Shown here piece by piece: positions 469 through 37,476 of a DNA stretch of 40,255 bases. Source of the DNA: Oscillatoriales cyanobacterium. GTDB taxonomy: Bacteria; Cyanobacteriota; Cyanobacteriia; CACIAM-69d. A program made the translations under genes and the position numbers. Each line of letters starts with the position of its first letter. Position 1 is the first letter of the stretch. The notes under the pieces were generated by a model. The model did not search any database, was not told where the DNA came from, and saw nothing but the letters and a program-made list of their open reading frames with translations. The stretch spans positions 1 to 40,255 of the forward strand of contig RDXB01000084.1 in the NCBI GenBank assembly GCA_004292515.1. The letters run 5' to 3'.

Positions 469-3162
469 ATGGCCGCTACCCCAGCATCTTTGCAACAGTT
501 CGTGCAATTTTGTCAAACTTTGAAAGGTGACGAAAAAGGCGAGTCACAAATTTTTTTGGATCGCTGGTTTCGCGCGTTTGGCTATGAAGGGGCGATCGAG
601 GCGGGAGCAACCTATGAAGCCAGGGTAAAACAGGGTAGCCAACAGGGCAAAACCGGCTTTGCAGATTTGGTTTGGAAACCGCGCGTTTTGATTGAAATGA
701 AAAAACGCGGCACAAACCTGAGGAAGCACTATCCCCAAGCCTTTGACTACTGGACAAGGCTAGTGCCCAATCGCCCTCGATACGTCATTCTGTGCAACTT
801 TGATGAATTTTGGATCTTCGATTTTGATCTGCAACTCGACACGCCCGTAGATATCGTGCCCCTGGCGCAATTGCCCGAACGCATCAGCGCCTTTGGGTTC
901 ATGGAAAAGACCAACCGCACCCCCGTGTTTCGCAACAATCAAGTTCAAATCACAGAGCGCGCGGCCCGTCGCCTAGGGGAATTATTAGTTGAACTTAAAA
1001 ATCGCGGTATTGATCCCTTTGAAGCCCAACGATTTATCCTGCAATGCGTCTTGGCCATGTTTGCAGAGGATCGAGGATTATTACCCGATCATCTCTTCAT
1101 TTCCTGCATTCAAGATTGCTTGCGAGGACAAAGTTCTTATGATGTCTTGAGTGGTCTATTCCATGCCATGAACACCCCCGGCATCACGCCTGCGGGCCGG
1201 TTCAAAGGGCTGGGCTACTTCAATGGCGGTCTGTTTTCGACCATTCAGCCGATCGAGCTCAGTCCTGAGGAATTAAAGTTCCTAGAAGTTTGTGCATTGG
1301 AAGATTGGAGTAAGGTACGGCCAGCCATTTTTGGCAACTTATTTGAATCGGCGATCGATGCCCAAGAACGTCACACCCACGGGATTCATTTCACTTCGGA
1401 AGCGGACATTATGAAAATTGTCCGGCCGACCATCTCTCGCTATTGGGAAGACAAAATTGCCAATGCCATCACCATGCAGGAACTGACTACCTTGCAATTA
1501 GAACTGCAATCCTATAAGGTACTTGACCCAGCTTGTGGCTCTGGCAACTTTCTCTATATTGCTTATCAGGAATTAAAACGAATTGAGCAACTCTTACTGG
1601 ACAAAATTGCTCAACATCCGGATCTGACCAGCTCGATCGATCAGGTTGCGATCGGCTTTGTCACGCCCCAGCAGTTTTATGGCATGGATATCAATCCTTT
1701 TGCGGTAGAACTGGCCCGAGTGACCATGATGATTGCGCGCAAGATTGCTATTGATACATTGGGTTTGATTGAACCAGCCTTACCCCTAGATACCTTGGAT
1801 CAAAATATTGAACGCAAAAATGCACTCTTTCGACACTGGGTAAAAGCTGATGCGATTATCGGAAATCCACCATTTTTGGGTGGAAAGCAGATGCGAAAAG
1901 CACTGGGAAATCAATATATTGAACGTCTTTTTAAAAAATTTCCCGATGTGAAAGATTCAGTGGACTTTTGTACCTACTGGTTTCGATTGACCCATGATGT
2001 GATTTGTGAAACTAAGGGTCGAGCTGGATTGGTGGGCACCAATTCCATTAGTCAGGGTAAAAGCCGAGTGGCATCCCTCGACTACATTACCCAAAACGGT
2101 GGGTATATTCACGAAGCAGTTGCTTCTCAAGTGTGGCCAGGCGAGGCAAATGTTCATGTCAGTATTGCTAATTGGAGCCTAGAACAGCCGAAACAATGCT
2201 CTCTGAACGGTCAACCAGTAAGTCAAATTAACTCTTCCTTGAAAGATGTCCTTGATGTGACCCAAGCGATTCGACTGACTGCTAATTTACATTGGTGTTT
2301 TACGGGTGTTACGCCGGTTGGTCAAGGATTTTTGGTGTCGCCCGAGCAGGTGGTAACCTGGCAAGCAATTGATCCCAAAAATGCGGAGGTGCTCTACCCC
2401 TTCCTAGAAGGGAACGAATTGGCAGCAGGTCTGAGAAAACAACCCAATCACTGGATTATTGATTTTGGAGATTCGACATTGGAGGCAGCTAGCGACTATC
2501 AGCAGCCTTTTCAATGGGTTAAGAAAATGGTGAAGCCAGAGCGCGAGCAAAACCGGCGGCTAGTTTATCAAAAATATTGGTGGCGTTTGGGTGAGCGTCG
2601 GCCGGCGATGCGGGTAGCATTGAAGTCGATCGCTCAGTATTTTGCAGTGCCTCAAACCTCGAAGTGGGCAATTTTTGTGCCTTGTCCGGCGACATGGCTG
2701 CCCAATGCCAGAACGCGGGTTGTGGCCTCTGAGGATTTTTATCTCCTCGGCATTTTGACGGCTCAGGTACATCGGGTCTGGATGAAAGCGCAGATGTCTA
2801 CGCTGAAGGCTGATATTTCCTATACGCACAACACCTGTTTTGAAACATTTCCTTTTCCGCAGACGGCAAATCAGCTATTAATTAATCAGATTCGGGCTAC
2901 TGCCTGGGAATTGCATCAGTATCGCAGCCAACAAATGGAGCAAAAACAGTGGGGAATCACTCAACTTTATAATGAGTATTTTGATGAGCCTGCTAGTCAG
3001 TTGGCTCAACTGCATCGTCAACTGGATCAGTTGGTGATGCGGTTATATGAATTTCAGGTGGGTGATGATCTTTTGGCACGATTGCTGACTTTAAATCGGG
3101 AGCTGGCAGCAAAAGAACAACGGGGCGAGCGGGTGATTGGCCCTTGGGATCCAACTCAATGA
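469..3162 (+). CDS. Single-chain restriction-modification enzyme (type IIL / MmeI-like DNA methyltransferase with nuclease domain)
   Basis: This 897-residue protein has the layout of MmeI-type enzymes, which combine DNA cleavage, adenine methylation and target recognition in one chain. The N-terminus contains a PD-(D/E)XK-like nuclease site, with D66 and then E76-M77-K78. The methyltransferase has SAM motif I, VLDPACGSGNF, near residue 350, and the catalytic N6-adenine motif NPPF at 466-469. The last 300 residues should be the target-recognition region. The length fits the family (about 850-1000). The ATG at 469 has no clear ribosome binding site, so the start is provisional. No separate S or R subunit lies beside it, as expected for a self-contained system. 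The gene looks more AT-rich and poorer in HIP1 sites than its neighbours, which suggests horizontal acquisition. Specificity cannot be read from sequence. Confidence 0.85.
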   Translation: MAATPASLQQFVQFCQTLKGDEKGESQIFLDRWFRAFGYEGAIEAGATYEARVKQGSQQGKTGFADLVWKPRVLIEMKKRGTNLRKHYPQAFDYWTRLVPNRPRYVILCNFDEFWIFDFDLQLDTPVDIVPLAQLPERISAFGFMEKTNRTPVFRNNQVQITERAARRLGELLVELKNRGIDPFEAQRFILQCVLAMFAEDRGLLPDHLFISCIQDCLRGQSSYDVLSGLFHAMNTPGITPAGRFKGLGYFNGGLFSTIQPIELSPEELKFLEVCALEDWSKVRPAIFGNLFESAIDAQERHTHGIHFTSEADIMKIVRPTISRYWEDKIANAITMQELTTLQLELQSYKVLDPACGSGNFLYIAYQELKRIEQLLLDKIAQHPDLTSSIDQVAIGFVTPQQFYGMDINPFAVELARVTMMIARKIAIDTLGLIEPALPLDTLDQNIERKNALFRHWVKADAIIGNPPFLGGKQMRKALGNQYIERLFKKFPDVKDSVDFCTYWFRLTHDVICETKGRAGLVGTNSISQGKSRVASLDYITQNGGYIHEAVASQVWPGEANVHVSIANWSLEQPKQCSLNGQPVSQINSSLKDVLDVTQAIRLTANLHWCFTGVTPVGQGFLVSPEQVVTWQAIDPKNAEVLYPFLEGNELAAGLRKQPNHWIIDFGDSTLEAASDYQQPFQWVKKMVKPEREQNRRLVYQKYWWRLGERRPAMRVALKSIAQYFAVPQTSKWAIFVPCPATWLPNARTRVVASEDFYLLGILTAQVHRVWMKAQMSTLKADISYTHNTCFETFPFPQTANQLLINQIRATAWELHQYRSQQMEQKQWGITQLYNEYFDEPASQLAQLHRQLDQLVMRLYEFQVGDDLLARLLTLNRELAAKEQRGERVIGPWDPTQ

Positions 3163-27034: not shown

Positions 27035-28270
27035 CTAACCATAAGTTGATTGTCGTACGGGAATTTGGATCATTAGCTCTGTACCTTGCCCCTCCTGAGA
27101 GGTACAGCTCAAAGTACCCTGATGGCGATCGGTCACAACTTGGTAACTAACCGACAAACCAATGCCCGTGCCCTTGCCGATCGGTTTAGTGGTGAAGAAA
27201 GGATCAAACACCCGTTGACAAATTGATTCGGGAATACCACACCCCGTATCGGCGATCGAAACTTTGACCCAGGGCGTGTCGGCAGCCGGTGGGTGGATTG
27301 ATTCTGTATGGATCACGATTTCGTAGGGCGGATTAGCCCCCATCATCAGGCGATCGCCCCGCTCATCCAGAGCATCCACCGCATTGATCAGAATATTCAA
27401 AAACACCTGATTCAGTTGACTGGGATAGCATTCAACATCAGGCAAAGAACCATAGTACTTGACCACTCGGATCGCAGGACGATTCGATTGCTCCTGGAAG
27501 CGATGGTGCAAAATCATCAACGCACTATCAATTCCATCATGCAAATTAACAGACTTCACCGCTGACTCATCCAACCGAGAAAAGGTTCTCAGGGACATCA
27601 CCAAATCCCGAATACGATTCGTGCCATACTCAATTGATTGCAGAATTTTAGATAAATCTGTTTCCAAGAAATCTAAGTCAGCCTCAATAGCTTGCAAGCG
27701 AGGATCAGTAATGATGCCAGCACCCACAGCACGGTGAGCCATCAACAAGTCCAACAGATCCCGTGTGTATTGCTGTAGAAATGATAAATTACCATGAATA
27801 AAGTTGACCGGATTATTCACCTCATGGGCAATTCCGGCCACCATTTTGCCCAAGCCAGACATCTTTTCAGATTGGATTAGCTGTAGTTGCGTTCTTTTTA
27901 ATTGATCAATAGTATCCGCCAACTTCTGATTGTCAGATTCTAATTGATCTTTAGAAGCCACAATTTGACTAATTTGACTCAGCAAATCGAAACTGCCATA
28001 GAAGCTGAGGAACCGGACAGCCACAATCACCGTTAGGAAATCTACAACGGTTTGCCAAGCCAGCATCGAGTCAATGCCTAACATGCCCAAGGCATGAAAT
28101 CCATGACCCAGGGAGCAACTAAAGAAAATACTAGCCATCGCTATTACTACCGAGCTAATGCCCTGTTGACGATTCCGCCAGATTCCCTGACTGATACCGT
28201 AGCCGACAATGATGTAGCAGATCGCAATGATGATATTTTCACTGATCATCAAGCTGGGAATCCAATTCAT
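27035..28270 (-). CDS. Membrane sensor histidine kinase with three-helix sensor resembling the ethylene-binding domain
   Basis: 411 residues. The N-terminal 95 residues form three hydrophobic helices: IIIAICYIIVGYGISQGI; SVVIAMASIFFSCSLGHGFH; and WQTVVDFLTVIVAVRFLSFY. Helix 2 has C52-x3-H56-x2-H59. Ethylene receptors coordinate copper with Cys-x3-His in the same helix, and the IAI-x-Y pattern of helix 1 also fits. The helix-1 Asp of ethylene receptors is Asn12 or Glu11 here. A coiled coil (about 105-135) leads to HisKA with H149 in AGIAHEVNNP. The HATPase domain has N-box NILINAVDAL, DTGCGIPE and GKGTGIGLSVS. The kinase part is of the HPK4 (NtrB-like) type. There is no receiver domain and no regulator gene nearby. 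Copper or ethylene binding is a hypothesis. Confidence 0.85.
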   Translation of the reverse strand: MNWIPSLMISENIIIAICYIIVGYGISQGIWRNRQQGISSVVIAMASIFFSCSLGHGFHALGMLGIDSMLAWQTVVDFLTVIVAVRFLSFYGSFDLLSQISQIVASKDQLESDNQKLADTIDQLKRTQLQLIQSEKMSGLGKMVAGIAHEVNNPVNFIHGNLSFLQQYTRDLLDLLMAHRAVGAGIITDPRLQAIEADLDFLETDLSKILQSIEYGTNRIRDLVMSLRTFSRLDESAVKSVNLHDGIDSALMILHHRFQEQSNRPAIRVVKYYGSLPDVECYPSQLNQVFLNILINAVDALDERGDRLMMGANPPYEIVIHTESIHPPAADTPWVKVSIADTGCGIPESICQRVFDPFFTTKPIGKGTGIGLSVSYQVVTDRHQGTLSCTSQEGQGTELMIQIPVRQSTYG

Positions 28271-35830: not shown

Positions 35831-36026
35831 CTGACCGGATCGCTTGACATCGCCTGACTCGGATCCGGATCGGTTGGCAAGCCTCAGACCGGATTCGTTG
35901 CCAAAGCGATCGGCTCCTGAATCCCAACTCTCGAACCGCAGGATCTCGGATCGCAAGATTGCCAACTCAGGATTTCGCAGCCAACGAGCTGGATCACCGC
36001 AGCCGGGTAACTCCGCGAACCGATCA

Positions 36027-36116
36027 AACCCGGAAGGGCGATCCAGCTCGGAAACGCGATCGAACCCGGAAGGGCGATCAAACCCGGAAGGGCGATCCAG
36101 CTCGGAAACGCGATCG
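36027..36116. repeat. 18-bp tandem repeats between oriC and dnaN
   Basis: Five 18-bp units alternate AACCCGGAAGGGCGATCM and AGCTCGGAAACGCGATCG, with degenerate units continuing to about 36155. Each carries a GCGATC core. As codons they read NPEGRS / SSETRS. Confidence 0.85.
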
Positions 36117-36364
36117 AACCCCAGAAACGCGACTCAACCCGGAAGCGTGATTGCCTTCCCACGAGCTGAATCGGCTAACCCGGATTGCCCCACGAGCCGA
36201 TCGAATCTGGAGAGGCGATCGAACCGGAAAACACAGCCGGTCAACCCGTTCAACCCTGGCAAGCCCCAATGGCTGGTTAGGCCCGTTGCATTTTCCCGAA
36301 GGCTTTTGGGTTAAACTCAAAACGCCAAATTTTTGACCCCTTTCGCCCCGCCGGTCTGCGCCGG

Positions 36365-36373
36365 TTTTCCACA
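36365..36373. promoter_or_regulatory. DnaA box immediately before dnaN
   Basis: TTTTCCACA lies 7 bases before the dnaN ATG and overlaps the place of the ribosome binding site (ACAGGAA). Bound DnaA could affect dnaN expression here. Confidence 0.75.
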
Positions 36374-36380
36374 GGAACCC

Positions 36381-37476
36381 ATGAAGCTGCTTTGCGCCCA
36401 AAGCGACCTGAGTGCCAACCTTTCGCTAGTCAGCCGCGCTGTGCCGTCGCGACCGACGCACCCGGTCTTGGGCAACGTGCTGCTGACTTGCGATGCGGGC
36501 ACTCAGCGCGTGAGTTTAACCGCCTTTGACCTGAGCTTGGGTATCCAAACCAGCTTCCCGGCGGAAGTCGAAGATTCGGGGGAAATTGCCCTGCCCGCCA
36601 AGCTGTTTTCGGACATCGTGGGCAAGCTGCCCAGCGGTTCCGTGTCGCTGGATGCCAACGAGGAGTTTTCCGCCGCGATCGCCGCCCAGTCGAGCCGCTA
36701 CCAGATTCAGGGCATGAGCGCCGAGGAATTTACAACCTTGCCGGTGGTGGAAACGGGCGAGGCGGTGTATCTGCCCGTGCGCTGTTTGCCGCCAGCAGCG
36801 ACGAAACCAAGCAAATCCTGACCGGGGTGCACCTGTCGGTGGAGGCAGATTCTCTGGAGTTTGCGGCAACCGACGGCCACCGGCTGGCGGTGGTGCGGGC
36901 GGCGATGGTGGAGGAGATTGAGGGCGAACCCGAGGCGATGGAACCCTTTGCGGTGACGGTTCCGGGGCGGACGTTGCGGGAACTAGAGCGGATTTTGGTG
37001 GCACAGCAATCGAGCGAGCCGGTGGCCCTGTATTGCGATCGCGGGCAATTGGCTCTGCAATGGGGCGATTACTACATCACCAGCCGCACCTTGGAAGGGC
37101 AGTACCCGGCTTACAACCAGCTCATTCCCCGCCAGTTCGATCGCCAAGTGACCGTGGAACGCAAGCTGCTGCTGGGGGCGCTCGATCGAATCTCGGTGAT
37201 TGCCGACCAAAAAAGCAACCACATCGTCAAGTTCTCGATCGATGCGGGCAACCAGTCCCTAGCGATTTCAGCCGATGCTCAGGATGCAGGCAGCGGGCGC
37301 GAAACGATCGAATCGGCCCAGATTTCCGGCGAGGACATCGACATCGCCTTCAACGTCAAGTACCTGATGGAATCGCTGAAAAACCTGACCACACGCCCAC
37401 CAGCCCGGTGGTGATTACGCCGCTGGGGGGTGCGAAGGCGACCCACTTGGTGATGCCGGTGCAGGTACGCAGCTAG
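36381..37476 (+). pseudogene. dnaN: DNA polymerase III beta clamp, broken by two small deletions
   Basis: The sliding clamp tethers DNA polymerase to the template. The gene starts MKLLCAQSDLSANLSLVSRA at 36381 and is recognisable to its end, VITPLGGAKATHLVMPVQVR. It is read in three successive frames. After VYLPV (codon 133, ends 36779) the frame is lost; homology resumes at 36782 with LFAASSDETKQILTGVHL, so about 28 bases (the usual EALxxGLRGx) are missing. After SLKNLT (ends 37390) it is lost again and resumes at 37393 with TPTSPVVITPL, so about 22-25 bases (the EIQLQLN part) are missing. Each junction leaves two stray bases. The sum, 365 codons plus about 18 lost, matches the family length. 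An essential gene next to oriC should be intact, so assembly error, strain mixture or a second copy elsewhere must be considered. Confidence 0.85.

Follow-up and report, generated by a model that had tools for sequence, protein, structure and literature searches.

A cyanobacterial histidine kinase with an N-terminal sensor that is sister to the ethylene-binding domain

The question raised by this locus is what kind of membrane sensor precedes the kinase encoded on the minus strand of the analyzed stretch of DNA (40,255 nucleotides from an Oscillatoriales cyanobacterium; further referred to as the window), and whether that sensor resembles those of ethylene receptors, as was proposed in a preliminary description that was based on the sequence alone. 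The ATG open reading frame represents a real cyanobacterial histidine kinase (Table 1), which is located between psaK and the gene encoding CP12. Within the window protein both HisKA (28.6 vs 26.9 bits) and HATPase_c (76.9 vs 26.4 bits) passed their Pfam cut-off, and neither a PAS nor an MCP part was recovered by Pfam, the protein being a compact kinase. The AlphaFold2 model, built with 49 sequences, contains three helices that are followed by a single long helix (mean pLDDT 88, pTM 0.68). The long helix is probably cytoplasmic, considering the attached kinase and the Arg-rich loop between TM1 and TM2.

Table 1. Position of the histidine kinase gene, its domains and the key residues of the sensor within the window
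Feature	Position	Strand	Basis
Gene encoding the histidine kinase (411 aa; sensor with three TM helices, helical linker, HisKA, HATPase_c)	27035..28270	-	
Transmembrane helix 1, residues 4-32	28175..28261	-	AlphaFold2 model
Transmembrane helix 2, residues 40-63	28082..28153	-	AlphaFold2 model
Transmembrane helix 3, residues 69-88	28007..28066	-	AlphaFold2 model
Long helix linking sensor to kinase, residues 91-129	27884..28000	-	AlphaFold2 model
HisKA match, residues 141-168	27767..27850	-	Pfam, E 1.4e-6
HATPase_c, residues 283-406	27053..27424	-	Pfam, E 2.1e-21
Asn12, site of ETR1 Asp25; Asn in 49/49	28235..28237	-	
Tyr19, site of ETR1 Tyr32; 49/49	28214..28216	-	
Cys52, site of ETR1 Cys65; 48/49	28115..28117	-	
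His56, site of ETR1 His69; 49/49	28103..28105	-	
His59, additional His; family 49/49, EBDs 0/156	28094..28096	-	
Asp77, site of ETR1 Lys91; family 49/49, EBDs 1/156	28040..28042	-	

The first 100 residues show homology to the ethylene-binding domain (EBD). When the isolated domain of the window protein was compared with Pfam, ETR1_N (PF25487; E 7.5e-4, 20.2 bits) ranked first, the second match having an E-value of 0.23, and NCBIfam yielded nothing better than E 2.9 for the same domain. The gathering cut-off of ETR1_N (27 bits) was missed by the isolated domain and by the whole window protein (16.4 bits). All nine diverse family members matched ETR1_N at E ≤ 1, the best of them at 1.5e-7, which probably passes the cut-off, and other Pfam families touched one of these nine members each (best: DctQ, E 0.005). 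Among nine further domain-bearing proteins, seven had ETR1_N matches with E ≤ 0.01 that stayed under the cut-off; L104 and L105 matched below the cut-off and L100 and L247 were without a match at E ≤ 0.01. The own genome contained an ETR1_N match at E 0.0029 and no other at E ≤ 10, while the 14 control genomes had none at E ≤ 0.01, six with a match at ≤ 0.1 and eleven at ≤ 10.

To this were added profile-profile comparisons with collected EBDs. ETR1_N matches above the cut-off were found in 87 of the 386 sampled cyanobacterial genomes. The EBD set was composed of those ETR1_N matches that were listed, being the best-scoring ones, and of weaker loci from two other searches: 172 loci were scanned, of which 165 gave a hit and 160 were distinct, and removal of four partial rows left 156 nearly complete EBDs; for the hhalign profile three more degraded rows were dropped, leaving 153. 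The alignment of the family with these 153 EBDs reached a probability of 96.0 and a score of 51.6 over 84 columns, with 30 column shuffles attaining at most a probability of 1.8 and a score of 16.6 and the reversed profile 0.12. The comparison could have shown an unrelated family and it placed the domain with the EBD, by which an unrelated three-TM family is ruled out. Asn12, Tyr19, Cys52, His56 and Asp77 were paired with ETR1 Asp25, Tyr32, Cys65, His69 and Lys91, respectively, where the number 32 is what we take to be the ETR1 position of the Tyr19 equivalent. For either family, a sequence search for a solved structure gave no convincing relative in the PDB, and Foldseek against the PDB gave no match better than E 0.54.

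The searches for relatives delineated a family that is found in two phyla. A scan of genome contigs with the single window protein as query returned no match. A motif-free search with the single domain gave matches in nine of the 386 cyanobacterial genomes sampled, one of them the own genome, and a profile of eight rows recovered the same nine genomes at E < 1e-45, separated by a clean gap from the next best match at 1.1e-4. The profile matches at E ≤ 0.01 numbered 24 and consisted of nine family members, of four loci that are EBD-like by reading (L050, L051, L059, L064) and of a remainder that mostly had stops or short frames. Weak matches to PF25487 were seen for L113-L117 and L121-L123. Scanning genome contigs with a seed motif, IFx[ST]C[ASG][FL]GH[SG], yielded 41 loci, two of which are labelled actinobacterial. 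When 296 sampled actinobacterial genomes were searched with a profile, again without the motif as seed, nine were recovered at E ≤ 1e-4 (centre genome counted), the weakest three of which are distant. The family is present in Cyanobacteria and Actinobacteria.

The domain was encountered before different outputs. In the short form (L065-L079) it is followed in 15/15 loci by a kinase core like that of the window protein; two of these loci have frame breaks, the open frame of L065 stopping after 167 aa and L078 being broken at its start. In the long form (L080-L102), which occurs in Microcoleaceae and their relatives, the sensor domain stands at the start of a chemotaxis receptor rich in PAS domains, unlike the compact window kinase; a clear example is the 2063 aa protein of L100 (MCPsignal, E 6.7e-41). 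An MCP domain was found in 18 of the 23 long-form loci, the open reading frames of the other five running off the sequence end; cheW directly precedes the receptor gene in 22/23 loci and a cheA-like stretch follows it in 11/23, and receptor, cheW and cheA-like stretch together possibly constitute a taxis system for a membrane signal. The actinobacterial members include PAS kinases with a receiver (L104, L105, L246, L247), a PAS kinase truncated where the locus stops (L250), a kinase that has a receiver and lacks a PAS match (L253) and a protein matching HisKA_3 weakly (L252); for L249 and L251 no further domain was matched in the stretch scanned. Since it precedes histidine kinases, hybrid kinases and a chemotaxis receptor, the sensor is a portable input module.

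We then compared the residues of the domain within the family. The preliminary description had read Cys52-x3-His56-x2-His59 in the second helix and an IAI-x-Y pattern in the first; the former is found at precisely these positions, all three residues being in helix 2 of the AlphaFold2 model, and the latter reads I15-A16-I17-C18-Y19. It had also considered the Asp of helix 1 to be replaced by Asn or Glu. The Asn part of this was borne out and the Glu part was not: Asn12, which is invariant and aligns with Asp25 in the profile-profile alignment, is the Asp25 equivalent, and residue 11 (Glu in the window protein) is often Ala. The residues that are invariant in the 49 aligned domains are Asn12, Tyr19, Ile48, Phe49, His56, His59, Asp77 and Leu97, and the expected conservation of the Cys and both His in relatives was observed (Table 1). 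A total of 40 rows originated from the scan that was seeded with the motif, so that the conservation of Cys52 and His56 in these rows is partly built in; Ile48, Phe49, Cys52 and His56 are biased by the seed motif, whereas Asn12, His59 and Asp77 lie outside of it. The nine rows from outside the seeded scan (the window itself, L004, L246, L247, L249-L253) have Asn12, His56, His59 and Asp77 in 9/9 and Cys52 in 8/9. The alignment omits L078 (broken start), L248, the distant L254-L256 and the duplicates L244 and L245. A chance motif is ruled out by the conservation across the 49 aligned relatives.

The exceptions concern two positions. L253 has Ser in place of Cys52 and keeps the two His and the Asp, and a Tyr takes the place of the second His in L254 and L256, both distant, where L255 keeps both His; therefore Cys52 and the second His are not strictly required in the wider group. 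The three distant actinobacterial loci retain the Asn, the Tyr, C-x3-H and a later Asp, and are possibly a third branch of the fold. Two actinobacterial members (L247:1408-1869, minus strand; L249:1480-1929, plus strand) display C-x2-H-H-x2-H, with an extra His before the conserved one.

The comparison with the 156 collected EBDs revealed where the two groups differ. At position 25 the EBDs have Asp (145) or Asn (11), versus Asn throughout the family. At position 72, the site of His59, they contain Glu (73), Asp (59), Ala (11), Gly (5), Asn (5) or Ser (3). Position 91, the site of Asp77, is Lys in 127, Arg in 22 and Gln in three EBDs, with Asp (L111), Asn, Ser and Gly occurring once each. The Pro at position 36 is found in 143/156 EBDs versus 0/49 family members, which have Ala, Gly or Ser and, once each, Thr, Met or Phe (Gly23 in the window protein), and position 62 is Ile in 152/156 EBDs versus Phe in 49/49 family members (Phe49 in the window protein). 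The Ile35 site remained Ile in 47/49 members and is Val22 in the window protein, a mild change. Both the Asp for Lys91 and the missing Pro of helix 1 (P36) were absent from the preliminary description. On the basis of these counts, the D25-H69-K91 set of the ethylene receptors is replaced by N12-H56/H59-D77. Compared with the EBD of ETR1, SynEtr1 and AzoEtr1, the family thus shares the three N-terminal helices on a histidine kinase, the Tyr in TM1, the C-x3-H in TM2 and a similar depth of the polar cluster, and differs by the change of D25 to Asn, the loss of P36, the change of I62 to Phe, an extra His three residues after H69 and the change of K91 to Asp. Two motifs in the consensus of 30 EBDs, HGxCYLW ahead of TM1 and WTLWxPxYW following TM2, are absent from the window protein.

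The depth of the cluster was derived from models. The EBD control model (30 EBDs) had a pLDDT of 83. Counted from the outer helix ends, Asp/His/Lys of the EBD are at 10/8/7 residues and Asn12/His56/Asp77 of the family at 8/7/8 (Asn12 8 into TM1, His56 7 before the end of TM2, Asp77 8 into TM3), and because of this similar residue depth the polar cluster should lie in a similar membrane layer.

A tree of 95 domains (49 of the family and 46 of the 153 EBDs, namely all 11 with Asn25 and 35 random ones; 106 columns) contained a single branch that splits the two sets with a support of 100/100, where it should be considered that the columns are few and that long branches meet at this split. The divergent, ethylene-receptor-like sensor that had been proposed is in this way supported as a sister clade of the EBDs. 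The 11 EBDs with Asn25 (L035, L050, L051, L059, L111, L197, L212, L222, L223, L224, L234) are scattered on the EBD side. They resemble the family in the Asn, and L111 also in Asp at 91, and are unlike it in that position 72 is Asp or Glu, never His, in 11/11. A coupling rule, by which Asn25 goes with an acid at 72, was discarded as not specific since the acid is also present in 121 of the 145 EBDs with Asp25. Genome G135 carries a family kinase (L066:5992-6396), a canonical EBD (L195) and a protein in which a divergent EBD precedes a putative GGDEF domain, the latter recognized by eye (L064).

What the replaced residues imply can be judged from published work on ethylene receptors. Predicted genes for EBD proteins are reported for many proteobacteria and cyanobacteria, with a wide range of outputs (PMC7700396), and ethylene receptors use Cu(I) (PMC12643061, PMC11819568, PMC6586836). 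In ETR1, D25 and C65 are reported as required for ethylene binding, mutation of D25 abolishing it, and D25 is predicted to position H69 and to bond K91 (PMC11819568). Residues I35, P36 and I62 were described as essential for ethylene binding, and in simulations the contact between copper and D25 was only infrequent (PMC6586836); elsewhere the copper site is counted as Asp25, Cys65 and His69 (PMC12643061). If Asp25 is a copper-site residue, the family, which lacks it, could bind copper less strongly unless its role is taken over by Asp77 or His59.

The family could nevertheless consist of true receptors of ethylene or another alkene, in which Cys52 and His56 would hold Cu(I), ethylene would be bound as in ETR1 and the other substitutions would be tolerated. 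The homology to the EBD and the C-x3-H core are in line with this, as are the equivalents of Tyr32, Ile35, Cys65 and His69, kept in 49, 47, 48 and 49 of the 49 members, and the Asn in place of Asp25 in 11 of 156 otherwise EBD-like domains, so that Asn at 25 alone does not exclude ethylene. Yet the TM3 Lys/Arg is Asp in all 49 members, and Asp25, Pro36 and Ile62 are replaced in all of them as well, where the D25 mutation is reported to eliminate ethylene binding by ETR1 (PMC11819568). Moreover, all six sampled genomes with the long form also have strong EBD matches, and therefore long form and EBD are not simple replacements of each other. We consider an alkene receptor very unlikely; with residues that are reported as needed for binding replaced in every aligned member, ethylene is unlikely as the main signal.

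Next to what was computed (the homology, the conserved residues, their similar depth, the separation from the EBDs and the reuse before different outputs), our preferred reading, to which we assign an even chance, is that the domain is an EBD sister family with a membrane metal site, probably of Cu(I), that is tuned to a signal other than ethylene. The three membrane helices would have the N terminus outside and enclose a buried polar cluster of Asn12 and Tyr19 (TM1), Cys52-x3-His56-x2-His59 (TM2) and Asp77 (TM3). Cys52 and His56 may hold the metal, for which Cu(I), the ion of ETR1, is the most likely candidate, and His59 and Asp77 may stand in for the D25-K91 pair, as extra ligands or in the second shell. 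The helices would then be shifted by a redox change at the site, or by the binding there of copper or of a small ligand that can cross the membrane, and the predicted direct helical connection from the sensor to the kinase or the chemotaxis signalling domain would switch the output.

Two readings depart from Cu(I). A set of Cys, His, His and Asp is typical for sites of Zn(II), Fe(II) or haem, and His56, His59, Asp77 (49/49) and Cys52 (48/49) could accordingly ligate one of these cofactors. The suggestion made earlier, that His59 might complete a different metal or haem site, fits the invariance of His59. Haem in particular found no support, and the 49-row alignment contains no further invariant His in another helix. 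The homologues with a known cofactor, the ethylene receptors, are reported to use Cu(I), and another cofactor seems quite unlikely to us. Clusters of Asp, His, Asn and Tyr can also function without a metal. The buried polar residues could thus act as a relay of protons or hydrogen bonds or as a thiol switch, and the domain could sense pH, quinones, or the redox state or properties of the membrane. The locus that has lost the Cys and keeps His, His and Asp (L253) agrees with such a cofactor-free sensor, as does the lack of a conserved neighbour gene pointing to a metal, but the C-x3-H pair, which holds copper in the homologous EBD, has been retained by 48/49 members (8/9 in the rows outside the motif scan), and we judge this alternative unlikely.

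The genetic context was inspected for partners. The adjacent open reading frames of the window that were scanned contained no response regulator. In the neighbourhoods of the short form no gene was common to more than 3/17 loci, and a copper partner thus did not emerge. The two congeners, G033 and G045, each contain a single canonical EBD and no representative of the family. They have kept psaK and a DUF2079 gene and show neither the histidine kinase nor CP12 within the 9.5 kb examined; as both are lacking nearby, no clean empty site was seen. Elsewhere in the window, an MmeI-type restriction-modification protein that matches four MmeI domain models is encoded at 469-3162 (plus strand), and a dnaN-like gene (domains of the DNA polymerase III beta subunit) at 36000-37420 (plus strand) spans more than one frame, pointing to a degraded copy or to errors in the assembly.

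We found no paper describing the sister family in the open-access collection that was searched, which does not establish its absence from print. Tentatively, and as a somewhat unlikely possibility, the family could represent a separate class of membrane metal sensors, in which a Cys-His-His(-Asp) copper site was obtained by rewiring D25-H69-K91 and a different gas or redox signal is passed on to kinases that regulate genes as well as to the machinery by which gliding cyanobacteria move. The ethylene receptors have a well-conserved buried network, and the sister family has a different invariant network that is maintained in two phyla. This suggests that the EBD fold serves membrane sensing more generally and that its specificity is open to rewiring. 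The family provides natural multiple variants (Asn at 25, His at 72, Asp at 91) for probing the selection of copper and ethylene by ETR1, and it calls for caution in annotation, as similarity to ETR1_N may label sensors of other signals as ethylene receptors.
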